From: Apostichopus japonicus
Lineage: Eukaryota > Echinodermata > Holothuroidea > Aspidochirotida > Stichopodidae
DNA: 64,000 nucleotides
NCBI RefSeq assembly: GCF_037975245.1
Contig: NC_092581.1
Coordinates: 17,468,303 to 17,532,302 of the forward strand
Reading direction: 5' to 3'
Shown: positions 1-51,870 of the stretch, one piece after another
How positions within the stretch are numbered: the stretch's first letter is position 1
Layout of the letters: each line of letters begins with the position of its first letter
Translations under genes and position numbers: made by a program
The notes under the pieces: model-generated
What the model was told of the DNA's origin: nothing
Seen by the model: only the letters and a program-made list of their open reading frames with translations
Databases searched by the model: none

Positions 1-861
1 TTACCTTGTAAATCCATGAGCATATATGGTCAGATCAGTTGAAGTAGAAGTAGATAATGGCTCTGTTGTCATGACGATTACCAAGTGATCAAGGGTGGGT
101 TCCTTCACTTACCTTGTAAATCCATGAGCATGTATGGTCAGATCAGTTGAAGTACAAGTAGATAATGGCTCTGTTGTCATGACGATTAACAAGTGATCAA
201 GAGGTGGCCTCCTTCACTTACCTTGTAAATCCATGAGCATATATGTTCAGACCAGTTAAAGTAGATAATGGCACTGTTGTCATGATGATAAACAAGTGAT
301 CAAAGGGTGGGTTCCTTCACTTACCTTGTAAATCCATGAGCATATATGGTCAGATCAGTTGAAGTAGAAGTAGATAACGGCTCTGTTGTCATGATGATAA
401 ACAAGTGATCAAAGGGTGGGTTCCTTCACTTACCTTGTAAATCCATTAGCATATATGGTCAGATCAGTTGAAGTAGAAGTAGATAATGGCTCTGTTGTCA
501 TGACGATTACCAAGTGATCAAGGGTGGGTTCCTTCACTTACCTTGTAAATCCATGAGCATGTATGGTCAGATCAGTTGAAGTACAAGTAGATAATGGCTC
601 TGTTGTCATGACGATTAACAAGTGATCAAGAGGTGGCCTCCTTCACTTACCTTGTAAATCCATGAGCATATATGTTCAGACCAGTTAAAGTAGATAATGG
701 CACTGTTGTCATGATGATTAACAAGTGATCAAAGGGTGGGTTCCTTCACTTACCTTGTAAATCCATGAGCATATATGGTCAGATCAGTTGAAGTTGAAGT
801 AGATAATGGCTCTGTTGTCATGACGATTACCAAGTGATCAAGGGTGGGTTCCTTCACTTAC
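1..861 (-). repeat. Tandem array of about 108-bp units carrying an exon end and splice donor
   Basis: Units begin at 1, 109, 218, 321, 430, 538, 647 and 750, giving lengths of 108, 109, 103, 109, 108, 109, 103 and 108 bp. The next unit, at 858, is the real end of exon 21 of the minus-strand gene. Each unit, read on the minus strand, copies about 90 bases of that exon plus the donor GTAAGTG and the first intron bases. Units 1, 2 and 3 match units 5, 6 and 7 by shared variants (for example both 103-bp units lack the same bases), so the array has a higher-order period near 429 bp. It is cut by the window edge and may be longer. Confidence 0.93.
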
Positions 862-3800
862 CTTGTAAATCCATGAGCATATATGGTCAGATCAGTTGAA
901 GTTGAAGTACATAACGGCACTGGTGTCATCACAATTGCCAAGGGGTCAAAGGTCAGCTTTGGTGCGTGGAGTATCCCATAGAGATGGAGATATTGGTAGG
1001 GTCTCTCTATGTTGCCATTAAGGATGATGGGAACTTTGGCAGAATATTCCCCTGGAGTAGCTGTAACAAGAGAGTAAATCAAATAATGAAAACCTTGTTA
1101 CTTGTCCCAGGTATCTTGTTTATCATGATAATCATCATAAGAGGTACCTGACTATGACTGAAATCAAGATATCTATAACTACTCATGGACCAATGATATC
1201 ATTATACCATGCAGATGTGTACTTCAGTACATCTCCCACAGCACAGAAAAACTTTACAACATGTTACAACTTTTGCAATAAGCCATATCCACTAATAGAA
1301 TCTTAAGACATTTTATGGACATAAAATTTGAGAAACAGTTATTAACTTGAAAAATCTAAAAGTATCCATAAATGGATGCCATAAATTTGATTCTGGAATG
1401 TATCACCTGAACCTTCACATTTTTCAAAAATTGTTTGTTTTCTCTGCATTTTAAGTCAAGTCATATACAGTTTATACTGCACTGTTAGACTTGAATAGAA
1501 GTTTTTCAAACTTTTCTAATTGAAAACTTTGCAAGTTTGCAATATTCCTTCAGGGCATCCGCAAGGCTCATTACCTTCATATTATGTCCATCATTTATGA
1601 TTTGTTATTCCTTATCATGAAAGAAAGTAAAATAGATAAAGGCAAGGAATTTCAATTGCAAAAGTCACAAGGTACTGATTTCGAGTCAATCCAAGATTAA
1701 TGTATGGCGTCCAGTTCCAGAGTTGTTGACAAATGTCAACATTTCTGCTTGGTCTCGCACTAGAAAACCTCATCTCCCCCTTTACATAAAATATAATACT
1801 ACATATAATAACTTAAGTTATGAGAATCCCTTATGCCTTCAAAATATTCTTTGTCCACTATTTGCTTAGTACAAATTGTATCTGATGAAGCAAGGACTTA
1901 CTTGGACAGAAGTTGACACCGAGGTCGTACGTCTGTCCCGGTTCCAGCATGTCCTCAACGTTGGTACCTCCTTCCCTAGGGGAGAGGAACGGTACCCCTC
2001 TCGATGAAATAAATTGGAAGACGCCTTCCTCGACTGCCGTCCCACACCCCTTGGAGTCGAGACTCCAATTGAGTACTTTTCCACTGTTGTTAATCAACAA
2101 CGTTGCCTTGCACTGAGCCTTGGTTCCGGTCGATTGCAGGCGTAGGAATCCAGATGGAAGGGTAAAGTCCAGGTTGTGATGGGACATTTCCAAAGGCTGA
2201 CGAAGGGCTGTGGCTACAATCCGTCGCTTGGGCGTTGCAACTGTGACGTTGACGGGACGCGGGGCGATGATATGATGAATGCTTTTGGAGGATGGTGCTG
2301 GAGTCGGAGGGAGAGGAGTAGGGTCAGGAGTGGGTGCCTCTGTCTGGTTGATGTTGACTGGAATGATAAAGTCATAGGAAGCTACCTCTGTAGGAGTGAA
2401 CTCTAGTTGACATTTCATGGTCGACAATCCTTGGATGGTGGCTTTAAAGGTGCCTGGATGTAAGGAATCCTCACTCTCTGGAAAAAGTTAAAATAAAAGA
2501 AGGATTCTGTTTATCATGTTGTAAGTAATGAATACAACCACAGCAACATTTGTAGGTATCTGGTCAACTACATTACAACTTCCACTGATAATATCATATG
2601 TATACTAATTCATCAAGCAACAACTCATAATGTTGACTGAAGTGGCCAAAAAGGAAAGAAGGAAAAGAGAAATGTGCAAGTTCCAAAAGGACAAATATTG
2701 AAAAAGATTATGAACATTGTGATGTTTAATAATACTTTAAGGACTTTCAGGGAAGAAAATAAACACTGGAAAGAGAAAAAAAGGAAATTTGAACAAGCAA
2801 TACCTTCCATAACATCAGCATCAAATTTCAAGGTGAAGTCTCGGAATCGTGAAAGATCAAATACGACTTTAGCTCTAGTTTTGCCTTTGTTGATTAACTT
2901 GAAAGGTAAAGTAATTGATGATCCACAGTAGATGCCACCAAACTGAAAGGACGACTGAAATAAAAGAAAAAATTAAAATTTTTTAATGGTGTTAATGTTA
3001 GAACTCACAACACTAGCCAATTTTAATATCATTGTGCCTTAAAGGTACTTACTGTGAGAGTCAGAAATAAACATTGACTTGTTTCAAAACTTAGGACATA
3101 TGTATGACTTTCTTATATCTTCCAACAAACACAATATAACTTTCTGCTTGAAAGAGGTCAGTTAAACATGAATTACCAAGATATATTAATCAGAATATCC
3201 AACAGAAATGGAAAATAATGCATAATTATAGTTGTCAAGTCATTCTCACCACATCAATATCAACTACGGGTGGCTCCACGGTACCACCCATCCTCAGTTC
3301 AATGGTTCTCCAGCCTCTTATATCAACCTCCAGTCTGGTGTCAAACTTCATCACCGCGCTGGGTGTAAGATACACCTGCAGCTCTGTGGTACCTCCAACT
3401 GGTACCACTCCTTGTACTGGGAAGACAGTAAGACCAGGCACAGGGTTGGGATCAACCACCTAGAAGAAGCAAAAATGTAATAAATAACAACATATAAATG
3501 GTGCATGTTTTAGGGTCAGGTTTCTATTGTTTTTTTTGTTTTTTGGGGTTCAATATGAAAGATATTATTTTCTTTATGAATACATGAGTTTGTTCTTTGT
3601 AAATGTATTGCCTCCAGAGATACAATAGATTTCTAGCATTCAATGAGAGCAAATCCATGCAACAAGTATACAGCACATCCAAGCAACACTCTTGTGGATA
3701 CTGTGTTTTAATACACTTAAGGTTTTCAGATTTTGACTTCTGTTGACCTCAGATGAAATATGAAAGTTTTATTTTTTCATGAATACATGAGTTTGCTAAC

Positions 3801-6800: not shown

Positions 6801-9800
6801 TAGTAATTCTAGATACTACGGTATTACTTACAGTATCTCATATACATGAAAAGTGATGACCAGTATAAACAGGGGAAACAAAACCAAGACACCTGAATTT
6901 GGAAAAAAATGACAAAAATCTGCAAAATATTGTTGTACAGTCATAAAAGTCTTTTTAATATTATAGCAACCAAATGCACCTGTATAAAATGAAATGTCAT
7001 ACACAAATCAGACAAACCTATTAACATTTGGTGTATCTGTTGTGGAGTGAGTCTCTTCTTGCAGTCTGCTTTCTCTGTGGTCGTCATGGGAACAGCATTC
7101 AGCCCACCACTACTAGGTCTTATCCTTGCCATTTTCTCCTTCTCCTGAAGCATCTTCGTACTCAACATTTGATTGCCCTTCACTGGAGCTACTGGAAACA
7201 AAATGGAATTAAAACGATATCAAGAATTCCTTCAAAAACGGAGTAACAATTTCATACAACTCTCAACTGTCATTCATACATGAGACAACTTCACTCCAAC
7301 TACTGGAATCAAAATGGAATTACAGGATTTCAAGAATTCCTTCAAAAACAATGTAACAATTTCATACAACTGTCATTCATACATGAGACAATACGTGACA
7401 ATGAAGATAATTAAACAATGTAAACAAAAGAGTATCATCTTACACTGGATATATGGTTCCACCTCTCTAGTGGATACCTTTGGTGGTTTCAGACCAGACG
7501 CTGACTTGAGACCAATATCTGTTACGTTATCGAGCTCAGTGAACGTTCTGAAATGAAAAACAAAACAATTAATAAATACACATATCAGTGTGATGTGACC
7601 ATTTCTTAAATGTATCAAGAAATAATTTTCAGCAAACTGAATGGTTATTTAACAGGATTAATTGATTAGCCACAATTTAATTGTTATAACTAGGACAGTT
7701 ATAGCTAAAAGTAAGTATTATAAAGTTGTTGAATGGATGTTAAGTTATAGAAGGCCAAACATGAGTTTATCACTGATAATGACTGTGTCAACTTTAATAG
7801 CAAACTTACTGTTACAAACTGAAACCATCGGTGAAAGATGAAAGTAAATAAACTTTACTTTAAAACTGATCAACTTCACTCCAAGGTATTAAGGAAATTT
7901 CATGGTTATAAAAAATGGAGTAATTATGCAAAACAACAAAAATATTGTTTAGTATGAACAAAATTAAGACAGAAAAGAAACATACTTTGCTTTTGACTTA
8001 GCAAGCCTTTTTGCTCTGGATTCCTGCAAGTAAGTGTTGTATTTGTTCTTGTGATCATGAATATGCATTAATTCTTCATCATTGTATGAATAGTCATTAT
8101 CCACATAAGTATGTCTATCAGCCTTGGTGAAAATAGTCCTGTAAGGATGACAAAACAAAGATATTTGCTAGTAATTTAACTGTTGCATAAAATATCATCC
8201 ACAGGTGCTTACAATTCTTAGCGATAGTTGTCAGGAGAAAACAACAGCTTAATGTATAAACATTGAAGTCAATTAGCAACAATAACTTAAATTCAGGAAA
8301 AGCATAATGCATTATGTAACATTTACTTACACATGCATTACTAAAGAAATATTGTAAAATCTCCACACATTGCTTATAGTATGAGATTTCTCATCAAGAG
8401 AAATTCATATCATGTAGGGTGCCATCTCAAAACTAAACAAAAGGCTTTATGAAGACCACTCCATGAAGGAGTAAAAAGGAAGAGCTTAGAGTTTGTATAG
8501 TAGAGACTCAAAGAAAAGGCTCTTTATGAAAAAGTGGTGTTGATGAAGAAGTAGGGATTCACAAAAACAGACGTTCAAGGAGAGACACTAACTAAGGAGA
8601 AACACAGTAGGGAGGAAGGGGAGGACTCTCCATGATGGATTACAGTACAGGGAGGAAGGAAGCATTCTCTGAGGAGAAGTGCAATAAAAGGATGAATGAA
8701 GAACTCCTCATGAAGGGGTGCAGTGCAGGGAGGAAGGAAGAATTCTCCGAGGAGTGCACTATAGAGACAAATGAAGGACTCCTCGTGAAGGGGTGCAGTG
8801 TTGGGAGGAAGGGGGAACACTCCATGATGGATTACAGTACAGGGAGGAAGGAAGAATTCTCCGAGGAGTGCACTATAGGGATTAAGGAAGGACTCCTCAT
8901 GAAGGGGTGCACTGCATGGAGGAAGGGGAGGACTCTCCATGATGGATTACAGTACAGGGAGGAACGAAGAATTCTATGAGGAGAGCAATATAGGGACGAT
9001 TGAAGGACCCCTCATTATGGGGTGCAGTGTAGAGAGGAAGGGGAGGACTCTCCATGATTTATTACAGTACAGAGAGGAAGGATGAATTCTCTGAGGAGTG
9101 CACTATAGGGATGAATGAAGGACTCCTCACGAAGGGGTGCACTGCATGGAGGAAGGGGAGGACTCTCTGTGATGGATTACAGTACAGAGAGGAACGAAGA
9201 ATTCTCTGAGGAGAGCAATATAGTGACGAATTAAGGACTCCTCACGAAGGGGTGCAGTGTACGGAAGTAGGGGAGGACTCTCTGTGATGGATTACAGTAC
9301 AGAGAGGAACGAAGAATTCTCTGAGGAGAGCAATATAGGGATGAATGAAGGACTCCTCATGAAGGGGTGCAGTGTAGCAATGAAGGAAGGACACCCCAGG
9401 AAGGCTTATTAAAGACAGACTATCAAACAAGCCTTTCCATGCACTCTGGATTAAATGGTTTTTCAAATTTCTAAAGTTCTTTTCAGATTAAAATTTGTTT
9501 CCTAATTTCTGTAACTTGTCCATACACTACAATATTAAACTTACTTGTATTCTTCTCTTCTGTAACTTGGCCGTACACTGCGAGATCTATCATTAGGATA
9601 AGCCACCAGAGCTTTGTCATCTCTGGACAGGCTCATTGTTTTCATCGTGTGGATATTCTTTGTCTTCGGAGCCCCTAAAACAGCAACCCTTGGTTGATAA
9701 GCCTTCAGTTCATCCACCTTGACATCCACAAGTTGACCTACTTCTCCGACAACAAGAGGGGTGATGCCTTTGAGACAAATACAACATAGATATAATTGCA

Positions 9801-18200: not shown

Positions 18201-19424
18201 AGACTTTTCATGATATTCTCAGGCCAACTGCAGAACAAAAACTGGGCAGCCTCAGGTTTTTGTCTCGTTTGCAGACACAAGAAAATAGTAAAGTAATCTT
18301 GTCTCAAGGGTCGGCACTCTGGTTTTCACCTTGCATCCATACCATCATTTTCGACGGATTCTTTCAGTTCACATCACAATCATCCTTCGTGATATTTTCA
18401 TGTGAATTTCTTGAAATTGTAATCGGTGGTTGATATTTTTTTGCCATTCAGGTCATGAATGAAGACGGTCACACATCGAGCATTCGAGATAAAATCCTCA
18501 CAATTTCTGTACAGAAAGGTTGGCGTGAGGGTACTCGCATCACCTTTCCCAAAGAAGGGGATCAGGGACCCAACAACATCCCAGCAGATATAGTCTTCGT
18601 TGTACGAGATAAACCTCACCCGAGGTTCGCCAGGGAGAGCAATAATCTTGTGTTTGTGGCTAAGGTGTTGCTGGGCAAGGCTCTGACAGGTTGCAGTGTT
18701 GATTTGCCGACATTAGACGGAAGATTACTAACCATTCCAATCAATGATATCATAAGGTGAGAAGGTATTCTTGGCATCCTGTAGGATATGTGGTGTGAGG
18801 GTATTGTTAGTGTCGTTAGTATCAAGGATTTCCTGAAGTTGTTAAGATTTTGTTGATGTCAGTACAATGACATCATTTGGTCATATAGTGTTCTTCATGG
18901 CAATATCAGTGGTACTATAGGGTATATATATATATATATATATATATATGAATTTATATATATATATTTATATGTGTGGGTGTATGCGTTTGTTTTGTAT
19001 TCTGACCGAGAACTTGAACAAAAGAATTCCGGGTCCTCGGTTGTGATTTCTAAAGAATCTCCACGTCCTCGGAAGAATTCTATTGTATGGGGTATTGTTA
19101 AGGTTAGGGTACGTGGATTTGAACAATGGAAAATACAATGGGGTCCTCGGTCTGAATGTAATACAAACATGTGTGTGTATATCTGTTTATTTTTCTAATG
19201 ATGTGGTATCATTTATATTTAAGCATCTGTTTTTGCACTATTCATATGTCACTCTTTTTGTTTGGATTTTCAGCCCTGGATATGAGAAGATTGTACCAGG
19301 AGAGGGCATGCCGATATCCCAAAACCCCAACGTCCGAGGAGACTTAATCATTCGTTTCGATATTGAATTTCCAAAACAGTTAACTTCTGAAAAGAAGCTT
19401 GCTCTCAAGGAGTCACTTCTGTAA
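15266..19424 (+). CDS. DNAJB13: DNAJB13, DnaJ/Hsp40 family protein of ciliary radial spokes
   Basis: Six exons (15266-15333, 16215-16318, 17061-17222, 17764-17921, 18452-18756, 19274-19424) total 948 bp and encode 315 residues, one fewer than I recall for human DNAJB13 (316). The N-terminal J domain starts [11 protein letters not shown] and has the HPD motif in KYHPDKN. It is followed by a short linker with FFGGNNPF, not a long Gly/Phe region. The C-terminal part is the two-lobed substrate-binding fold of type II Hsp40s ([36 protein letters not shown]). No zinc-finger CxxCxGxG repeats are present, as expected. In mammals the protein sits in radial spokes of motile cilia and sperm tails. The start lies in the usual MGxDYY context. 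It shares a divergent promoter region with the CFAP47-like gene. All splice phases agree. Confidence 0.96.
17321..17625 (+). mobile_element. tRNA-derived SINE in DNAJB13 intron 3
   Basis: The head resembles a tRNA, with an A-box-like GTGGTCAATTGG and a B box GGTTCGATTCC near 17376. The body contains GGGGTTAAATGGGTACCTGTG and the tail TAAAGCGCTATATAAA followed by an ATT-rich end. Such tails are common in SINEs of marine invertebrates. It sits wholly between exons 3 and 4. Confidence 0.8.
18920..19180. mobile_element. TA microsatellite plus small inverted-repeat element in DNAJB13 intron 5
   Basis: A (TA)n run at about 18920-18950 is followed by a short element with roughly inverted ends. The left end reads TTTGTATTCTGACCGAGAAC (near 18992). 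The right end, on the opposite strand, reads TTTGTATTACATTCAGACCG. Internal copies of GTCCTCGG recur. It looks like a MITE; no target duplication was identified. Confidence 0.45.
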
Positions 19425-24000: not shown

Positions 24001-26956
24001 AATGGTTATTGTCTTTAAGTGGGCATTTGTTTGTCTATTGTGATGTTTACATCTATGCACTACATCTCTGTAATTTATTCATGTGATCCTCACACGCACT
24101 TACATCCCACAACAAGAGTCATCCTTGGTACCATCTCTGAGCAATTCAATCAAATAACAAAGTATGTTATTCATAACTTTGACAATGATGATGTTAAGAG
24201 CAATGCTCTAATTATGGCAGTGAGAACTCAAAGTTGAAGCGCAGTCACACTCTGTACTGTCTGCTGTATTTTTTTTATACCTTTGTAGACCTGTCCAATA
24301 CGTTTGTGTATGGTACCCATCCAATCGAATACATATCCAATATCTAATCCTACCATAAACTTTGTTTGTATTCATATGATCCATACATATCTATACAATA
24401 TCATATCACAAGACCTACAGTTCTTGAGATTTGTCAGTTATTTTGGGAAATGCTGATATTGTAGCTTGCTTACATTTAGGAGAATGTGTTTTTCCCCCCT
24501 TCCCTCTGCTCTTGGTAGTTTTATATTTGGGGTAGAGTCCTATACTACTTGGAACTGATGTCATCGGTTTGATCTGTCTAATGTCATTTATTGCCAGTTC
24601 AAACAATTTATTCTTTCACCCTCAACAAGTTCAGGAACAACATCAGCTTGTAAAATGTTTGGAATAGTCATAATCCAACCCAATTATCCACAGCCTCACA
24701 TGGAAATATCCATAGCATCACATGGAAATATCCATAGCCTCACATGGAAGTATCCATAGCACCACATGGAAATATCCATAGCCTCACATGGAAATATCCA
24801 TAGCATCACATGGAAATATCCATAGGAAATTCTTCTCCTTTGTGAAGGATATATGCGATGGAAGTGAATTCCTTTGTTCATGGAAATAATGCAAGTTTCA
24901 TTTCAATATTCTGTTAGAATTAGGCCTTACTGTGCTAAGAAGCTTGTAAACCAAACGAAAGTTATGAATATTCACATACCTCAACACAGCCACTCATTAG
25001 TATTCATGTCATCATTAATCAAGCTTAATACACCTTCACTGGTTCCTGTCTACTCACTCGTCAACCCCTTTTAACCTTTTGCTTCATGCCTGCTCTTAAC
25101 TGTTCTTATTTTTATCGTAATCTTTAAATTTTGCATGCTAATAGGTCATTCAGCACTGCACAGGTAAATTTTATCATACAGTTTTTTTTTTAGCCAAGCA
25201 TTACCCTTTTTTATTCTTTTTTACTCCTTTTTTTTTTATTCTACGTTTTTACAAGATTGAGATGTTAGTTTGTTTGTACCATCAATAAACAGTTCATCTT
25301 ATTTTAAGATCATGACGAAACATAGGTACACAAATATCGGCACCAGCACTTATTTTGCAAATCTTATGAAAGGAAGTGATCATCTTGCTTTGAGCTGTCA
25401 TACTGTTTGTAAATGTGTCATCGGTTTGGGTAATGCGGATTGTTCTTTAAATTGTTTGAACCAAGGGTTCACAGAAAGTAATCTCTGCCTCACTACACCA
25501 TACATTAAGCAGAATATCTGGATAGGTGCATTTTAATATGGTCTCAAGCTGGGAGAAATGGGTCTCTGTTTTGGGTCAAAGCTATTACTCAGACACATGA
25601 AGAAATAAGAATAAGTAAAAATTGAAATGTTGGATTAAAATACTTTTATGTTTGGTACCCCGCTGTGTTAGAACAACATCATCTCTGCATGTTCCATATT
25701 CAAAAAAAGTCATTAACAGTATTAACATGGGAGCACAGGATGCCTCATTACATAGTCATTTCTTTCTACCGTTCTCAAGCAGAATCTAAACAAACTAAAT
25801 GGCTTAACTAACTGATTAATTTATTTAATATTTGCTGGGTCTTGCATGATATAAGAAATCAGGGTTTCATGAAAACCTTTTGAGTGTCTATTTTGGTGTT
25901 TTGTGGCAATTACTTACTTTCACCACTGACCTTTAGAGCATAGATTTTGGCATAACATGCCTTGTATTCAACATGTTGTTTGTATTTACAGATACACGCA
26001 CACACAAAATGAAAAAGCAGATCTCTCTGCAGCTTAGTTAGCCTTTGTATTCTTTGACAAAACAACAGAAATTCAACATAGTATTAGATCAAAACTGTTA
26101 TAATGCTCTTTTGTATCTGTGGCAGTTCTCCAGAAGCCATTTATATGTTGTTTCGTGCTATCAGTGTAAAGACACTGGCCGGCTCTTTCAATGACTTATC
26201 CAAAGTAGAATAATAATTAGAGAGAAAAGAAGAGAACAACATGTTAAATGGAGAGGTTTACTGGATGAAGTAGGTCAGGTTAAAGAAGGAAAAATAATTC
26301 CTTACTGTGAACTGCTGGAAGAAGTTAATGAATTTGTTTTGGTCATTTCTCAGCAAAGGTGATAAAATTTGCATATTTTTAAATTTGTCTGAAGGTTTGC
26401 ACCTCTTATCAGAATGGCTTTAAGACAGGCTGATTGTAGATTTAAAAGGTTTTTTTTTTTTGAAACGGTTAAAATTTTTGGTGGAATGCCTTAAAAATAT
26501 CTATGCTTTGGAGGTCCAGTGGTTTCTGTCACGCTTTTCTACTTTCTCTGCTTTGGATGTAACCTTTGGGTTTCAGGTGATACGTCGATGCCACCACCAT
26601 CCAAACCTTGCTAAACCATCACGTACGGCTTCCCCTCGCCGAATTAACCCTCAGGGTAAGGTTAGTAGAACCAACATTCCCTTCTCCATCTCCCATGCTT
26701 CCCTGGTTCCATTGACAATTTTATTGCTTTGATCTGGTGAGAGATTGTTTGTTTTTGTTGCAACCTGGAATAGCTCTTCTTACATTTGCTTACAGTTTGT
26801 GACTTCTTGAATTTTGACTTTGGGTTTTCAGTAAAATAAATAGAAACAATTATCCTCCTTGTTACCCTCTCATTGTAATAAGCAATAGTGTTCCTTCAGA
26901 AGATTGCTAGAGTTTTACACCAATGATTACTGACTGAAGTGGAATATAGCTCTACC

Positions 26957-33832: not shown

Positions 33833-36800
33833 CTGTGAAAGAAAAATGAATAATCGTTGCTTCATGATAATGATAAAAAATGAATATAAAACTGGCTTTC
33901 AAACATGATTAGTTTTGTAGCGCATCCTTAAAAGTAATAATAACACACGCCACTAGTCAGGCATGTATCCAACCCCTATCGCTCAACCTGTTCACCCTAA
34001 CACAACCCTACCCCTCAACATTTCACCAACCAAAACCCCATCCTCAACTTTTCAGCCCCCTCCCAAACACACATAAAAGAACAGTAGTTATCATGTTAGC
34101 CCAACCTTTCTTGACCTAATTATAGACCTTCTTTATAGCCGAAACATGCCTCAGAATGCCTCATTTTACGTTTATTTTTCTTTTCGTTTATTATCTTTTT
34201 CACTCCACACCGGCTTCAATCACCACAGTTTAAAACCTCTCCTTTTTAAAATCCTTGATCCGTACCTTCTATAGTCATGACCAGGGGCGTTGCCAGAGTA
34301 CTATACATGGGAGAGGGGAGGGGTTAGTGCCATGTTTTTCCGACTAAACAGAGGAAAATACCGACAAGAAGTGTTGATTAACGAGATGGGGGGGGGGGGG
34401 AGGATTCCAGTGGACAGGGGTCCGCTGAAGGCTGATGATCCCTTAGACTGGTGCAGAACATGGCTGAATGGAGGGGGGGGGGGTGAAAGCCACACACCGC
34501 TTTAGATACGGCCCTGTTCATTACGACTATCGTCAGGACAGAATTTAACTTTGGAGGCCACAGTCCCATGAGACACTCAAGGTAGTCATTGTAATTATGA
34601 TAAAGTGAATCCAGGCGCGTAGTTAAATGTGTGCTTGTCAATAAGAATTAGCTGAATAGATATTCGAATTACGTTTCTCCTCAAAGCACCCTTACTCCTC
34701 TCCCCCCCCCTACTCCCCCATCTAGCTCACCCCTCGCCTATACCGACAACAATAATCCATGCTCCTATAGCATCTGATGCCCAATTTGAATTGAATGGGG
34801 ACAGCATCAGTTGAAATTACTTTCCTGTTTTATGGCTAATTTAGTAGACCTCCACATGAAGCATTTCGTCTTAGAATATAATTGTTCATTTGTTTAGGAC
34901 TACATTGAATATGAAAGGATCCTGGTCAGAACATGCCCACATTCCAGTTATTATGCACTAGTTTTTGCGTCATTCAGGGGCGTAGCGAAGGGGTTTTTGT
35001 TGGGGGGTGTGGAGAATTTGATTTGCCGACGGATCTGGAAGTGGTGACTGAAATGGGGGAGGGGTCTAATTTTTAGTTTTGAAACGTCCTTAGATGCAAT
35101 CTGATGTATATTTTAAGTCAAATTTGATTTGCCGACGGATCTGGAAGTGGTGACTGAAATGGGGGAGGGGTCTAAGGGGAGGGGGTCTACCCCTCCCCTT
35201 TGGAAAAATTAGTTTGAACGTCCTTAGATGCAATCTGGTGCATATTTTAAGTCAAATTTGGCACGGAAGAAGCTCCCGTTCTCCTTTTTCTATTCAGCTT
35301 TCCTTCTTTCTTCCCCTTCCGCTCTCTTCACCTTTTCTCCTTTTGCCGACAGACCCAAAAATTTGCCGACAGCGACCAAATTATTGGGGGGGTGTGACAC
35401 CCCCCCCACACCCCCCCCCGCTCGCTACGCCCCTGGCGTCATTTACTTTATTGTAACGTATTCTATATTTTCTCTGCATACTTAGCCTTTCTTACCCATG
35501 AGATATTTATAAATATAATGATGTGATATTCAACTAACAATGTCAGTATTTAAAAAACCACCATATATCGCGCCATAGTTGCCAAAAGTATCCCCTGTCA
35601 TTAGACTATGCTGATTATAACACTTACATTTGTCACAATACAAGCTGATTGGTCGGTCGTCTGTAACATGGCCACTGGCATCCACAACTAGACATTCGTC
35701 GAGGGAATCAGCGTCTTTCGGACAAGCATAAGAGTATTTTGGCACCACTAATCCATTGCCAAATTCACTGTCCGTATCATAGTTTCTATAACTCCCTTCC
35801 CCAACTAACTTATCACAAATCAGCTTCGGTGTGATATAACCATGTTCGAAGGTATCAGACACTGCCCGCCAATGAACGCCGTCGAAAATTTCTAAACGAC
35901 CAACTTTTGGAGATGTACCGTTCATGAGTCGGAGGGCAAACTTTTCTGTTTTTTTTTTTTAAAGGAACAAAATAAAAAAGAATAAGAAGAAAGGAGAAAA
36001 AGTAACAAAATACTGAATCATCAGAACAAGAAGTTATTGGGGTCTTTCAACTCCTTCGCCAAATCAGATATATAGTCTCAGTTTGTGTTTATTTGAATGT
36101 GCTCTCAAAATGTCAGGAAATCGACAATTTTTCAAGTTATGGTTCACTTCTAATAGAATTATACAACGTACGTGTTATAGGACGAAAATTTGCATCATGA
36201 ACCACTTTGTTCTTACAACAACCATCATTTATAGATCATTTAGTTTTAAGTGATCATTTCTTACCTGGATTTTCACAAACCACGGTCCCTATGGCACCAG
36301 ACAGACATGTCTCCTTAGCAACCGTGCGAGGGCAGTCTTTGATAGATTTCTCATCTCCCGTGCACTCGACTCTATGATAAATCGCCTTTTCATTATTTGT
36401 CATATCTTTGCTTATATTTACTGCTCCTGCGTAACCCAACTGCCGACAGACCACATGACCAGACTGGCGTGTCCAGCCGTTTATACATACTGCGCCCCAT
36501 TGTCCGTTGTTATATATCTCGATTCGTCCTGAAGAAGGTTCACTGTCAGACACCTTTGAGTTGATCAAACGAACGGACCATTCGTTGGCTGTCTCGTCTT
36601 AGAGAAAACGACAACAACAACAAATCAATAATAGAAAACAATTTAATTGAAATAACAGAACAATAATAAATATCAAATCCAATCAGGCATATAGACCTAT
36701 ATCATGATAGAGAAATTGGTGAATTTCGATTTGCATAGGCAGATAAAATAGGTCCATCATCGCTTTATCCCTGAAAATTATTTCACCCGAGCCTCGATCT

Positions 36801-39800
36801 ACTCGTCAACATTCCATGTCGTATCGACCCTTTTATAAAAATGTCACGTGTCAGAATTCATTGCGGATCTGACTGAAAACGTGCAAATGAATTCATTAAA
36901 CATAAAGCAGGCATAGTTTTATAGCGCATAATGGAGCAATATACATCAAAAGAACAAAATATGTTCTTACTACGTTGCACCTATAAATCACAAGATTCAT
37001 TTGATAATGTGATATAATATTTAACATTATACTCAGAGTATATAATGCAACCGAATACTTTGCATATACGGCAATTTAATTGCCAATAACTTGTCAGGCT
37101 ACCTATCCCCCCCCCCCACCCTCCCCTCCTCATCTGCTCGCAGTCATATTTACACCTTTAAGGTGTTTCAATATTTCCATATAATGTTATTGCGCATACT
37201 GATTTATTGAGAGTGATGCACGTGTCGAGGGCTGAGTTTGCGGGAGAGCAGGGCTATATAGATAGTAGTTTCACTATTTCATTTTTTCATTTATTTGTTT
37301 CCACATTCAAAATATATTACACAATAATAGAAGAAAATGTATGTGACAAGTGGAGGAGGTCTGAGAAAGCCGAGGCTCTTACGAAGCAGACCACCCGTAC
37401 AAAGACAATAATAAAATAAAATAAATAATGAACAATGTATGCAACAAACAAAGGTTGCACACACAAATAAACCATGTAACTGTACTTACGTTACATAATA
37501 TAACAATATACAATTTAAAGAATTATCAAATACGTAATTGACCCTAGTCCTCCCTGCAAGACCCTCCCCGTAAACTCCCGTCTGTCCCCTAAGTCAACAA
37601 TTGTGTCCCCTGACACCTTCCCATCCCCTAGTTAATCACCCAACCATACCCCCAAATCACAAAACTTGGAATATAGACAAGAATAAAAAAAGACGCATCT
37701 AACCCCCCCCCCCACCCGAACCGCTCCCCCGCCCCCTGTACGTGTACAGATTGTCTTACCAGCTTCTAAGCAGACCACTCCAGCGTAAGACTGCGTATGA
37801 CAGGAGGAGAATGATATTCCGCAATCGATTAATTGCTTCTCGTAGCCCTCACACAAGACGCTATCGAAATGGATTAGGTCATTGCCGGCATCTAAGAAGG
37901 GAATCCTCTTTACTGAGACGGCGTACGGACGATATCCTAATTGTCTGCAAACTACGTTTGCGTTATGGATATTCCACTCTTCCGTAAAACAAACAGAACC
38001 TTCTAACCCGTTGTACCTTACCATGACCCTTCCGTGATACAAACGTACTCTACCTTGGTCAACTGAAGAACCAAGAAAAGAACAATATATGTATAAATGT
38101 ACGTTGGTTTCATATTAATAATGCATTTTATCCAAAGGATACATAATAAGCCACCGATTTTCCTACTTGAAGGTGGGGTAAGGGTGGTGGTTGTTGTATG
38201 TTTTTTTGTTGGGGGAGGGAGGCGGGGTGGGGGTGCATGACCAATCAACTTTAAATATGTAATTCAGTAACACTCAAAATAACATATTATGGTCCGCTGT
38301 AATTATGGATTTTAGCCCTAACTTACAATCACATCGTTGGGTTAAAGCCGGTTTAAATTCTCCATCGCGACATCGCGATTTCTCCGGTCCAAGTAAAAGT
38401 CCGTTGGTACATGAAAACGTAACATCCTCTCCATCCCAGACAAACTTGTCCTCTGGAGAACTTTTTACACCGTCTTGCAGATCCGGTAGGACGCATGGAG
38501 CTGGTAGAATCGATCAATGGAAAAACAAATGAAGGCCCGTGAATGGTTCATCAGACAGTTGATTAACCTTCATTGAATTTTGTTTAACTCCTACGTTATC
38601 TTAAACTATAAATTCTTGAATGTGCAGTACCCCTACAATTGACCCCCTCCTCTCCCATCCCCATCCATCATATTTGGTAGATGTCAATCGTAATGGGCCC
38701 GCGCTGGGTCCAACTCTAACTCGATGACGCCACAATTATTGAATCACAATGTCTGAGTCTTATCACCACACAAATCAATGTGACAATATTTAAGAATCTT
38801 TCGCTTAATTAACCCAAACAAAATTAGTATTCATAATTTCTCATGAGTGTTTTCTTTAGTATACGTATATTTGGCAATAGAGAGTTCATGCTTCGGATTT
38901 CATTTCCACCATTCCTTACCCTAAAATGTTATTAGCAAAATACCTTAATATAAGCTTTCATGTTATATTTCGTGAATCATTCAACACTGGACAGTTTTTA
39001 CTATGTTGTACACGAAACATGGAACTAGTAAGTATTGTAAAGACAAAGGGGTGGTGAAATGTTTCAAAATTTGTGGTTATGCAAACGGCCGGTGTAGCAG
39101 TACAAACTGTCGCAAATATTCCATATTCAGTATAAACTGTCCCGGTCCCACAGGACAGTTTATACTGGATTTACCAGTACGTTTGGTCTCCCCGGACCTA
39201 TTGTACAAGGCCAGTTGGTACAGACTGTCTCCCCAGACAGAATATGCTATGGTTACACGGAGGGGGACATTATTCGACGGTCATATATTTTGTTGTAAAT
39301 TGTGTCCCCTGAACACAATGTCCGCCGTAGCATGTACGTTCGAGTAGCAAAAATTTAATTAGTAATGGACTCTGGCAGTATCCGTATTATTAGCAAATTG
39401 TCGCATTTCGGCTTCCGTATATTTAGCAGTAAAGTCGTGCGACAACTAAAAACGGAAAAGCTAGCAGAAAACGTGAGACAAATTGCGGATATTCTAAGAG
39501 ATGAGAGCTATCCAAGTGGGTTTACAAGAATAAAACAGAGAAGAATCTTACGGAGACAAAGTCAGTCTTTCAGACTGGCTGAAAATGGAACTCTTGCGTA
39601 CCGAAATTGAAGGAAAGTGTTGCTATCTAGGGCTACTCAACTCGCCCAAATCGAAGCAGCTCACACTGACTAGTGACATCTATAAGGTAATGTCTGTAAC
39701 TTACAGTATAGGATACACAATATGCCTTTGCTTGTTAAATGGCGAACGGCCATTCCACAGTTAAACTATAACCAGGCCTCTAGGACCTTTTTGGTGAACA

Positions 39801-45800: not shown

Positions 45801-48551
45801 GTAATAATTTCGATTGGAATTCTACGGAAACTCGTATTTATCCTGTGGGTACTCCGCACTATAAATCTGTATATCGTACAAGAAAATTAAATATAAAATG
45901 CAAAAGATATCAGAAAGAGGGAAATACAGAATTAATTAATCAGTTAAATAGTTTTAAGAAGAGTATATACTGACTATGACAATGAAAGTCAAGTGGGTCC
46001 GGCTCCCAGTGTGTTTGTTGGGTTGTACCATTATAAATGCAGGTAAGCATACTGCCTCCTGATGACGTATAGTAATGTGGACACTGCAATTGGACAAGTT
46101 GTACGTCATATTGCGTCTGGTTGTGAACTGTCACCAGCTCATTGATATCAGCTGGTGGAGTGCAGAAAGCTACAATGACAAGGTAAAAAAAAGAAAGAAA
46201 TGAGAACAAAACGGATGAAAAATATACAAAGAACTACCATATAGGAAAATCAACGTTTTGGCGCCTGTATAGTTACCCCAGAGAGATATTTGATGACTAT
46301 AAAGATATTGAGCACGCATGCAGGCAAATCATATAGCTTGGAGCATTTCACAAGTGCAAACAAAAGAAATACTAGGGAAGTTTATAAACTTCATAAAGCT
46401 ATGGATCCAAAAATATATGTAAAACTGAAAACCTCATATCTGGTACCCAAACCCAGGAAAGAGAGAGGGGGGGGTGCGTTGGAGAGTTACTTTTTCAAGT
46501 CAGACAAACCCTTTTGTTACCCCAGAGACTAATGGATCATAGCGAGTAGTCTATGTCGTACACCGAGCGAATGCACTTCACTTGAGAAGCTAACGGTTAC
46601 CATGATGACGTCACTCACCCTGGCGTTACCATGACTCAACTTGACGTAAAAAGTCATATCTTCGCCACCCAGTATGATATCCTATATCACAATTGATTTT
46701 ATCATATCCTATATCACAACTGTTGGTATCATATCCTATATCCCAATTGTTAGTATCATATCCTATATCAAAATTGTAAGTATGATATCTTATATCACAA
46801 CTATAAGTATCATATCCTATATCCCAATTGTTAGTAATATATCCTATATTCCAGTTGTTAGTATCATATCCTATATCCCAATTGCTAGTATCATTTCCTA
46901 TATCACAATTGTTAGTATCATATCATATATCCCAATTGTTAGTAATATACCCTATATCCCAATTGTTAGTATCATATTCTATATCCCAATTGTAAGTATG
47001 ATATCCTATATCCTAATTGTTAGTATCATATCCTATATCCCAGGTGTTAGTATCATATCCTATATCCCAATTGTTGGTATCATATCCTATACCCCAATTG
47101 TTAATAATATATCCTATATCCTGCAGTTGTTAGTATCGTATCCTATATCCCAATTGCTAGTATCATTTCCTATATCACAATTTTTAGTATCATATCATAT
47201 ATCCCAATTGTTAGTAATATACCCTATATCCCAATTGTTAGTAGCATATTCTATATCCCAATTGTAAGTATGATATCCTATATCCCAATTGTTAGTATCA
47301 TATCCTATATCCCAATTGTTAGTATCATATCATATATCCTAATTGTTAGTATCGTATCCTATATCCCAATTGTTAGTATCATATCATGTATCCTAATTGT
47401 TAGTATCATATCCTTTATCCCAATTTTTAGTATCATATCCTATATTTCCTAATTGTTGGTATTATATCCTATATCCCATTTGTAAGTATGATATCCTATA
47501 TTACAATTGTTAGTATAATATCATATATCCCAATTGTTAGTAATATATCCTACATCCCAATTGTTAATATTATATCATATATCCTAATTGTTAGTATCAT
47601 TTCCTATATCCCAATTGCTTTCTCCTTAACTGATGAAGAAACTTGAGACAACCATAGAGGGAAGAATACTCGCCCGTTCCTCCCTCCCTCCCACCCGCCA
47701 GGGATGTTTCTATTTGTATTCGTACTCGTGTTGTTGTACTTGTACTAGAGTGTCTACTGCATGGTATGCACTATGATAAATCGCCATTGCGTATTGCAAT
47801 GTTAATATAATGTTAAAAGTATGAAACCTAATTAAGTTTACACTACATAGCGCAACTTACAGGATCAATTTTGTTAATTAGTGTAAGGTAATTGGATCAC
47901 TGATAAAATAGTTGATATTTCTTTAATATAGATAATTGTTATGATGATTCATCAAACAAGGCTTAGTAATTACAAAGGTCAGTTCTTGCCCTCTTTCGTT
48001 TTCAATGGCTCCTTATACAACGCGTGAGCCACGAGTGGTTAATTATTATTCAATGAGACACTAATTAATGACATAATGATATAAGCTATTTCATTGATCC
48101 TTCATATGCAGTAGTCTGACTACAGTAGCATAACGAAGATAGGGAGACAAATAGTATATCAGGGGCCCAACCTACACCCCCATCGCTTTAGAAAATATAA
48201 GTCAATACACAGGGTTTGAGGTTTCATCTAATAGGCTTTACAGAGATGCAGGTCACATTATTATCTATATTAAACTTTTGCGAGTGAAACACTGTTTAAA
48301 TCCTGTCTTATATACATTGAAAATTTAGAGTAAAGTCGGATAGTTACCAAAACAAATAAATTCGGAAGGATTCGGCAGCCATGTTGTCTCTCCAGTGATT
48401 ACGTCATATGTACATGTGCTGTTATGTTCTCCTAAGGAAGAGTGATGCTCTTCGCAATGTAAGTGGATTGTTCGACTGATGTCATTTCTGCTGACGTCAT
48501 CAAATTTAACAAAATCCCTCACTTGTGGGTCGGCACAATCTTGTAAACTAT
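33582..48551 (-). CDS. Sushi/SRCR single-pass transmembrane receptor, C-terminal seven exons (5' end not found)
   Basis: Seven exons in coding order (48348-48551, 45975-46169, 38327-38500, 37760-38062, 36265-36597, 35628-35945, 33582-33832) all use phase-1 boundaries, so each extracellular module is a symmetrical cassette. The predicted order is three Sushi (CCP) domains, three SRCR domains, a transmembrane helix and a tail of about 50 residues, about 592 residues in all. SRCR proteins act in pathogen recognition and are greatly expanded in echinoderms; a role as an innate immune or cell-recognition receptor is inferred. No signal-peptide exon was identified upstream of 48551, so more exons probably exist. 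A single transcript joining all seven is inferred from phase, strand and order. The large introns hold minisatellite, integrase and hAT-like sequences. An AATAAA on the minus strand at 33566-33571 is unusually close to the stop. Confidence 0.83.
34282..34516. mobile_element. Possible diverged hAT-like element in receptor intron
   Basis: The left end starts CAGGGGCGTTGCC and the right end finishes GGCCCTG. Flanks GTCATGAC and TTCATTAC match at 6 of 8 positions, which could be an aged 8-bp target duplication. The interior has long G runs and no coding frame. Confidence 0.4.
34975..35435. mobile_element. Non-autonomous hAT-like DNA transposon with 8-bp target duplication
   Basis: The left end reads CAGGGGCGTAGCGA and the right end is its near-perfect reverse complement (TCGCTACGCCCCTG). 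The element is flanked on both sides by GCGTCATT, an exact 8-bp duplication. Terminal CAGGGGCG and 8-bp duplications are typical of the hAT superfamily. It is 461 bp with no transposase and contains an internal duplication of about 111 bp (35013-35250). It lies in the intron before the transmembrane exon. Confidence 0.82.
35628..35945 (-). CDS. Receptor exon: degenerate SRCR domain lacking one disulfide pair
   Basis: A 106-codon phase-1 cassette. It keeps the SRCR frame (GRLEIFDGVHWRAVSDTF, then LICDKLVGEG) but has only four cysteines. In the standard pattern C2 is replaced by serine (RAVS) and C7 is absent, while C3, C5, C6 and C8 remain. The acceptor follows an A-rich stretch rather than a good pyrimidine tract, so the 5' border is less certain; CAG at 35946-35948 gives the correct phase. 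Confidence 0.78.
36265..36597 (-). CDS. Receptor exon: SRCR domain
   Basis: A 111-codon phase-1 cassette with the hallmark phrases GRIEIYNNGQWGAVC, HVVCRQLGY and HRVECTGDEKSIKDC, ending at GTVVCEN. Six cysteines are present, as in group A SRCR domains, although group A domains in vertebrates are usually split over two exons and this one is not. The donor is GTAAGAA. Confidence 0.95.
37760..38062 (-). CDS. Receptor exon: SRCR domain
   Basis: A 101-codon phase-1 cassette beginning DQGRVRLYHGRVMVRYNG, with GSVCF, ANVVCRQLGY, DSVLCEGYEKQLIDC and YAGVVCLEAG. Six cysteines are conserved. Strong GTAAGA donor and CTTCAG acceptor. Confidence 0.94.
38327..38500 (-). CDS. Receptor exon: Sushi (CCP) domain
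   Basis: A 58-codon phase-1 cassette with four cysteines in Sushi order: CVLPDLQDG, VTFSCTNG, KSRCRDGEFKP and TQRC. The donor GTAAGT follows the last cysteine by four bases, the same arrangement as in the other two Sushi exons. The tryptophan usually found before the fourth cysteine is replaced by phenylalanine (GEFKP). Confidence 0.88.
39060..39340. repeat. Repeat built of short inverted GGACA/TGTCC motifs (copy 1)
   Basis: Contains ACAGTTTATACTGG, AGACTGTCTCCCCAGACAG, AATATGCTATG and GTGTCCCCTGAACACAATG. The same vocabulary recurs at 45285-45480. It lies in the large receptor intron just before the integrase relic. It is not assigned to a known family. Confidence 0.4.
39365..42873 (+). pseudogene. 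Broken intron-containing gypsy-integrase-like gene (KRBA2/GIN/Ginger type)
   Basis: Four exon-like blocks lie at 39365-39686, 40498-40674, 41342-41499 and 42828-42873, with GT-AG borders. Block 1 has the N-terminal region of this family (YPSGFTRIKQRRILRRQS, then AQIEAAHTD). Block 2 has LLSRFYWKTINVDVTSY and, in another frame, HSIPVTGLWKQ. Block 3 opens the DDE catalytic core (VGVDLIGPLP, SDFYSKWPETKAVPDKTA). Damage includes an in-frame TGA at 39608, a frameshift near 39668, a shift within block 2 and a shifted second-aspartate region in block 4; the glutamate part is absent. These lesions make it non-functional. Introns argue against a simple retrocopy; a Ginger-like DNA transposon or a decayed domesticated gene fits better. 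It lies antisense in a receptor intron. Confidence 0.8.
44703..45203 (-). CDS. Unassigned 166-codon open frame in receptor intron
   Basis: An open frame with a hydrophobic stretch (VFVVIAAMLSSVYVAFCI) near residue 40, followed by a region with several cysteines (YDNCRGK, YGNCTSW, ESCLANMKFHPC). No family was recognised. A possible donor GTAAAA lies inside at the YDNCRG codons. In AT-rich DNA an open frame of this length is borderline for chance, so it may not be a gene. It lies on the receptor strand between two receptor exons. Confidence 0.15.
   Translation of the reverse strand: MLQEINETLCVAAKQKIERKKKEEKETSLPSVEDVNHVFVVIAAMLSSVYVAFCIRQLHCVHSHLYRGRDSINLTPPLPTEGGYGIGNATATTKYDNCRGKILRILGVQTSFFPYFPNTQWVSFGKYGNCTSWVYESCLANMKFHPCVKLIIGREVTESVFKLHPK
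45285..45480. repeat. Repeat built of short inverted GGACA/TGTCC motifs (copy 2)
   Basis: Related in vocabulary to 39060-39340 (GGGACAAAATATGCTATG, GTCCGACCGGAC). It holds a perfect inverted repeat at 45418-45447: 12-base arms GTACAAAGTGTC and GACACTTTGTAC around CGCGGA. Confidence 0.45.
45975..46169 (-). CDS. Receptor exon: Sushi (CCP) domain
   Basis: A 65-codon phase-1 cassette with four cysteines (FCTPPADIN, VQLQCPHYYTS, MLTCIYNGTT, THWEPDPLDFHC) and the conserved tryptophan before the last. The acceptor has an excellent pyrimidine tract. That tract also reads as a hydrophobic signal-like peptide (MFSFLSFFYLVIV) in frame, so this could instead be a first exon; splicing is judged more likely. 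The donor GTCAGT is weak but sits at the same place as in the other Sushi exons. Confidence 0.85.
46674..47622. repeat. 27-bp minisatellite, about 35 copies
   Basis: The unit contains CATATCCTATATCCCAATTG followed by TTAGTAT. Because 27 is a multiple of three, a plus-strand frame stays open for most of the array and reads as repeats of ISYIPIVSI; this is a by-product of the array and not a gene. It lies in the intron between the first two Sushi exons. Variants such as CATATCATATATCC recur, suggesting local block duplications. Confidence 0.95.
48348..48551 (-). CDS. Receptor exon: Sushi (CCP) domain, most upstream exon found
   Basis: A 68-codon phase-1 cassette with four cysteines (SLQDCADPQ, TIHLHCEEHHSS, NSTCTYDVITG, PSEFIC) and the motif ETTWLPNP before the last cysteine. 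It resembles the neighbouring Sushi exon at 45975-46169 (THWEPDP), suggesting exon duplication. Donor GTAACT, acceptor TTTTTACAG. Confidence 0.87.
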
Positions 48552-51794: not shown

Positions 51795-51870
51795 ATCTCC
51801 GCCGGGATTCGAACCCGGGCCTCCCGCTTTATAGGCGGACACCCTAACCAACTATAGGATATGGACGCTG
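51795..51870 (-). mobile_element. tRNA-derived sequence (SINE head or tRNA pseudogene)
   Basis: On the minus strand the D stem CCTA/TAGG, anticodon stem TCCGC/GCGGG and a perfect T stem CCGGG/CCCGG around TTCGAAT can be drawn. The loop CTATAAA gives an anticodon position of ATA. The acceptor stem does not pair, so a working tRNA is unlikely; a SINE head is the better reading. Confidence 0.65.

Follow-up and report, generated by a model that had tools for sequence, protein, structure and literature searches.

The stretch analyzed here is a 64,000-nucleotide window of the genome of the sea cucumber Apostichopus japonicus (contig NC_092581.1, positions 17,468,303 to 17,532,302), at one edge of which a tandem array resembling the end of an exon lies directly beside that exon in a CFAP47-like gene. 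The gene is on the minus strand, and 18 joined translated pieces from the window match PDB chain 9ijj_4A, a solved structure of 3184 residues named cilia and flagella-associated protein 47, with an E value of 2.8e-154, as well as chain 7n6g_1L, named FAP47, with an E value of 3.9e-46 (we take 9ijj to be from a mammal and 7n6g to be from Chlamydomonas). Homology placed 15 exon pieces of this gene in the window, a set from which short exons may be missing, and the exon at 862-1060 is the last of these pieces and the last exon of the gene within the window. When joined to the preceding exon it matches 9ijj_4A with an E value of 8.2e-20 and the match reaches residue 1317 of 3184, with the corresponding FAP47 match reaching residue 1276 of 2939. 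The 68-residue translation of this exon alone shows no Pfam family at an E value of 0.1; joined to the preceding exon it returns Ig-like families of the CFAP65 and HYDIN type.

The array occupies positions 1-861 on the intron side of this exon and directly abuts the exon end. Tandem Repeats Finder (TRF) reports a period of 108 with 8.7 copies over positions 1-936, a period of 429 with 2.2 copies and 96% matches over positions 1-953, and an additional row with a period of 320. When units are delimited by cutting at GTAAGTG, eight extra copies are resolved that range from 103 to 109 bp in length and are each composed of ~91 bp of the exon tail and ~18 bp of the start of the intron, with GTAAGTGAAGGA at the start and GGATTTACAAG at the end of each copy. 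Since the window opens inside the array, eight copies is a minimum. A hand-typed query composed of a two-copy composite unit matches pieces of the array at E values of 1.5e-51 to 4e-103, and matches the exon tail at 862-952 alone at an E value of 3e-28, which excludes a chance origin of the array. Beyond the array and the exon tail, this query finds only matches at an E value of 5.6 in the window, and a 24-base core of the unit has no matches in viral_contigs and none in genome_contigs, collections that cover viruses, bacteria and archaea and in which few are expected. The copies hold only the last ~91 bp of the 199-bp exon and are without its TTGTTACAG acceptor, so this is not a tandem exon duplication.

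Superimposed on the monomeric repeat is a higher-order period. Specifically, an ungapped self-comparison over shifts of 95-544 peaks at a shift of 429 with 95.6% identity over 432 bases, with the next-best shift reaching 67%. Units u2-u5, numbered outward from the exon as in Table 1, differ from units u6-u8 at 2 of 324 bases, and other unit pairs exhibit up to 12 differences. The blocks are thus more alike than neighboring units, which is the behavior of a higher-order satellite, with ~1.75 blocks visible in the window. Unit u5 looks like a recombinant; it is identical to u6 in columns 0-50, and its right part differs from u8 only at column 55. Unequal exchange typically leaves a block period together with a recombinant unit. 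Blocks this close to identical point to one of two origins, namely a duplication so recent that it probably still varies between individuals or the joining of two haplotypes during assembly.

The direction of copying is indicated by comparison with the solved structures. At the place where the exon encodes FDPLAIVMTPVPL, the 9ijj CFAP47 chain has FDPSFICFTPVPL and FAP47 has FDVRECLLPPVPL, and the units have DHLVIVMTTEPL and variants thereof, with TTVPL present in u2 and u6. Thus, FDP and TPVPL are common to the exon and 9ijj_4A, whereas the units have DH and either TTEPL or TTVPL. Because it is the exon, and not the units, that agrees with CFAP47, the exon is ancestral at these residues and the units have lost conserved ones. 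The array therefore derives from the exon, with copying having run from the exon to the units. Coding constraint on the units is not apparent, given that 6 of the 19 distinct exon-to-unit changes are synonymous in the exon frame relative to 67 of 255 possible single changes, although these numbers are small. The remaining observed changes comprise 12 nonsynonymous and 1 nominal stop (177 and 11, respectively, among the possible changes), and the stop is not realized in u3 and u7, where a further change affects that codon.

Copying of the junction also multiplied the splice donor. Nine donors are visible (Table 1), and all eight that are seen in full, including the exon's own, read AAG/GTAAGTG, where the slash marks the exon/intron junction. 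Across the whole window, the minus strand contains the 9-mer [AC]AGGT[AG]AGT 10 times, with eight of these occurrences located in the first 870 bases, and the plus strand does not contain it. We scored splice sites with models based on 11 donors and 14 acceptors that were chosen by eye from homology-derived exon edges. With the donor model, which was made from 11 other putative donors of the gene, the eight full AAG/GTAAGT sites score 10.9, which is the best in the region and is reached by three minus-strand sites in the remaining window. These results uphold the preliminary description of this DNA, which had proposed at least eight copies of an exon tail plus GTAAGTG in a CFAP47-like gene, a four-unit block of about 429 bp, an exon end at 862 followed by an in-frame TAA after the junction, and a decoy donor in each copy.

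For each of the seven decoy donors tested, an exon extended that far encounters an in-frame stop at codon 2. Since extension to any decoy meets a stop at once, the exon's own donor is predicted to be the one that is mainly used. Synthesis of a full-length protein would require that the exon's own donor win, and use of this most distal donor would be the straightforward route. That the donor itself gives a stop at codon 2 of the exon frame also makes it most likely that it was already intronic when it was first copied. There are several points that weigh against a preference for the exon's own donor. According to predicted local folding, the exon's own donor is not more accessible than the group of decoys. 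In addition, in a study on competing 5' splice sites, the favored site is described as being the intron-proximal or the intron-distal one depending on bound proteins, with the proximal site being preferred in DOK7 (PMC5585400). As published competing sites go either way, donor choice would not be a foregone conclusion, and with a proximal preference at this locus one would expect the last copy to be used.

Taken together, we consider it likely that this array is an intronic satellite that arose by a junction-spanning tandem duplication in a CFAP47-like gene, and that was subsequently grown and reshuffled by unequal exchange under near neutrality. The initial event would have been a tandem duplication across the exon/intron junction that took in the ~91 bp exon tail and the ~18 bp intron start. 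Unequal exchange would then have enlarged and rearranged the array, including a recent duplication of the four-unit 429-bp block, with the resulting copies constituting decoy donors that have the same 9-mer as the true donor. Copy number of the array would be expected to vary between individuals. The array probably has little or no function and is best viewed as a nearly harmless by-product.

Table 1. Coordinates of the exon, the array units and their donors in the window.
Feature	Coordinates	Strand	Length	Donor	Remarks
CFAP47-like exon	862..1060	-	199 bp		TTGTTACAG acceptor before 1060; donor AAG/GTAAGTG after 862
Unit u1	754..861	-	108 bp	861 (exon's own)	Exon's own donor at its start (861 is the G of GT)
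Unit u2	651..753	-	103 bp	753 (decoy)	6-bp deletion; opens first higher-order block
Unit u3	542..650	-	109 bp	650 (decoy)	
Unit u4	434..541	-	108 bp	541 (decoy)	
Unit u5	325..433	-	109 bp	433 (decoy)	Resembles u6 on the left and u8 on the right (apparent recombinant)
Unit u6	222..324	-	103 bp	324 (decoy)	Opens second higher-order block
Unit u7	113..221	-	109 bp	221 (decoy)	Identical to u3
Unit u8	5..112	-	108 bp	112 (decoy)	
Start of next donor (GTAA)	1..4	-		4 (cut)	Donor cut by the window edge; array may go on outside

The distribution of differences between the exon and the units offers a weak hint of exchange between the exon tail and the array near the donor. The seven fixed exon/unit differences are confined to the left 43 exon-derived columns, with the right 48 columns nearest the donor being free of them, a split that is reached in 45 of 3000 permutations. 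The right part of u1 also has no differences from the exon (0/46). An exchange reading is supported by this one-sidedness of the fixed differences and by the identity of u1 and the exon in the right part. Counting against it is the absence of a comparable split when all 21 columns with any difference are used, as the best split then falls elsewhere (21/78 versus 0/13 in the columns adjoining the donor) and lacks significance, being reached in 331 of 3000 permutations. A broader proposal is that the array and coding exon keep exchanging sequence, with the satellite serving as a reservoir that overwrites the 3' end of a ciliary exon or is itself overwritten by it, and with the nine identical donors forming a natural competition experiment on how the spliceosome selects the first of many equal 5' splice sites. 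This proposal is put forward as rather doubtful. Selection on the decoy donors was also considered on the basis of an invariant 25-column run and was rejected, as a run of this length arises at some position in 3410 of 20000 random placements. When the same 25-column stretch at the donor is singled out post hoc, 170 of 20000 placements leave it invariant.

Among the alternatives to a nearly neutral satellite, the one that survives best is regulated or leaky use of the decoy donors as occurs in human 6-16/IFI6, which we regard as unlikely and which could coexist with an origin by duplication and unequal exchange. The decoys carry the same AAG/GTAAGT as the exon's own donor, and the IFI6 precedent discussed below demonstrates that repeat units can function in this capacity. 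However, placing the variable sites at random leaves the nine donor columns unchanged in 4071 of 20000 trials, so that their invariance is not beyond chance. Leaky use would bring in a TAA at once, so that the outcome would be either a CFAP47 protein cut at ~41% of its length or nonsense-mediated decay. The codon 2 stop observed for all seven decoys, and an exon end near residue 1317 of 3184, agree with such a truncation, which we likewise do not expect.

An assembly artefact, in which the 429-bp block represents two haplotypes joined in tandem or in which the array is mis-sized, is less probable still. The two blocks do differ at an allele-like level, but upon removal of the second block units u1-u5 stay distinct from each other, with 2-11 pairwise differences when gaps are ignored. 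Since five distinct units would be left, duplication at the monomer level would still stand.

A very unlikely alternative is that the units function as zero-length exons in recursive splicing, or that they are included as extra in-frame exons. A recursive splice (ratchet) site is composed of a polypyrimidine tract and an AG that is juxtaposed to GTAAGT. An AG directly precedes each of the seven decoy donors seen in full (AG/GTAAGT), but the acceptor context is weak, there is no clear polypyrimidine tract, and these AGs score only -1.5 to 0.9. There are 40 AGs in the array, and after excluding two that are within 40 bases of the exon the other 38 form 154 pairs of an AG with a later donor. The insert length is a multiple of three in 48 of these pairs, and seven of the 48 are also free of stops. 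These seven open pairs use AGs in or beside the donor motif (GTGAAG in five cases, AAGGAG in two), with the GTGAAG acceptor scoring 0.6. For comparison, the 14 putative acceptors of the gene, each left out of the model when scored, range from -5.6 to 11.4, with 9 of 14 scoring at least 4.8 and 2 of 14 scoring below -3, which is lower than any array AG discussed here. The array AGs therefore score within the broad spread seen for acceptors of the gene itself, and a model that is noisy because it was built from 14 sites picked by eye cannot rule them out. The more acceptor-like CAACAG located mid-unit scores 0.8 to 3.2 (7/8 units) and gives rise to a frameshifting insert of 52 or 58 bp in 8/8 units. 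Thus, splicing into the array does not appear to be wholly closed. The preliminary claim that the copies must either be skipped by splicing or terminate the protein is thus too strong, as it holds for all seven decoy extensions and fails for the seven of 154 in-frame, stop-free pairs, albeit with weak-looking acceptors.

The least probable alternative is that the intron itself was created by tandem duplication of an AGGT-bearing exonic segment (the Rogers model), for although the units contain AAGGTAAG and are mostly exon-derived, GTAAG is a stop in the exon frame, so that the segment would not have been wholly exonic beforehand (assuming the same frame and donor at that time), the intron was presumably there first and the classic intron-gain model does not fit; boundary-crossing variants of this model, as described for potato in PMC4974935, are compatible with the GTAAG stop.

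The CFAP47-like gene contains a second large intronic array at 8603-9377, with units near 115 bp, that lies ~170 bp past the exon end near 9544. A regional habit of making arrays from exons was considered and rejected, as three other arrays (8643-9377, 46671-47617 and 24685-24825) have no matches elsewhere in the window at an E value of 1e-3, except for the extension of the first of these to 8603. The array at 46671-47617 is a 27-bp minisatellite of ~35 copies, and the plus strand at 46650-47267 is open for 205 codons from stop to stop. Divergent from the CFAP47-like gene is a plus strand open frame at 18434-18760 with a DnaJ C-terminal domain (PF01556, E value of 4.9e-20). Minus strand open frames at 35530-35958 and 37632-38114 resemble, by eye, scavenger-receptor cysteine-rich repeats. 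Finally, there is a lone weak tRNA-like match at 51798-51865 (Rfam RF00005, 30.7 bits relative to a gathering score of 29) that is not called by ARAGORN and that is possibly a tRNA-derived repeat.

The closest known system is the human 6-16 gene, which has a short repeat unit of 12 bp at an exon/intron junction. As described in PMC4526556, this 6-16/IFI6 minisatellite provides multiple splice donors, with two downstream repeat units being used and three mRNAs being produced. Both systems have tandem repeats that supply several donors after one exon, with the sea cucumber array adjoining the exon end at 862, and both have a donor consensus in each repeat (here eight full and one cut). The systems differ in that the sea cucumber unit is ~108 bp, is mostly former coding exon, has a four-unit higher-order period and carries a stop just past the junction. 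A repeated donor in a minisatellite is thus not a new class of element, and the preliminary description overstated how unusual this locus is, given the published account of 6-16/IFI6. Literature searches on repeats, donors, intron gain and competing sites did not find a closer precedent.

Two other systems are related to a lesser extent. The gain of introns by tandem duplication of segments that bear AGGT or cross a boundary has been described, with the cases in PMC4974935 including Hellsten 2011, multiple 24-bp duplicates in fission yeast (Zhu and Niu 2013) and potato RdRp. As described there, these cases resemble the array in that the duplicated segment has AGGT or crosses a boundary, and the fission yeast example is also multi-copy. 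They differ in that the donor described here most likely predates the duplication, so no new intron is needed. The variable number tandem repeat in TERT intron 6, composed of 38-bp repeats, is likewise an intronic tandem repeat within a gene, with the alteration of splicing by RNA pairing being a feature of TERT as reported in PMC3948165. The sea cucumber array displays a junction-spanning tandem duplication at a stage where its source, unit order and recent block expansion are still readable. If its donors are used as we propose, the array would also constitute a natural duplicated-5'-splice-site experiment in which at least nine identical donors with exonic context are present in one intron, and its value would be as a natural test of splice-site choice.
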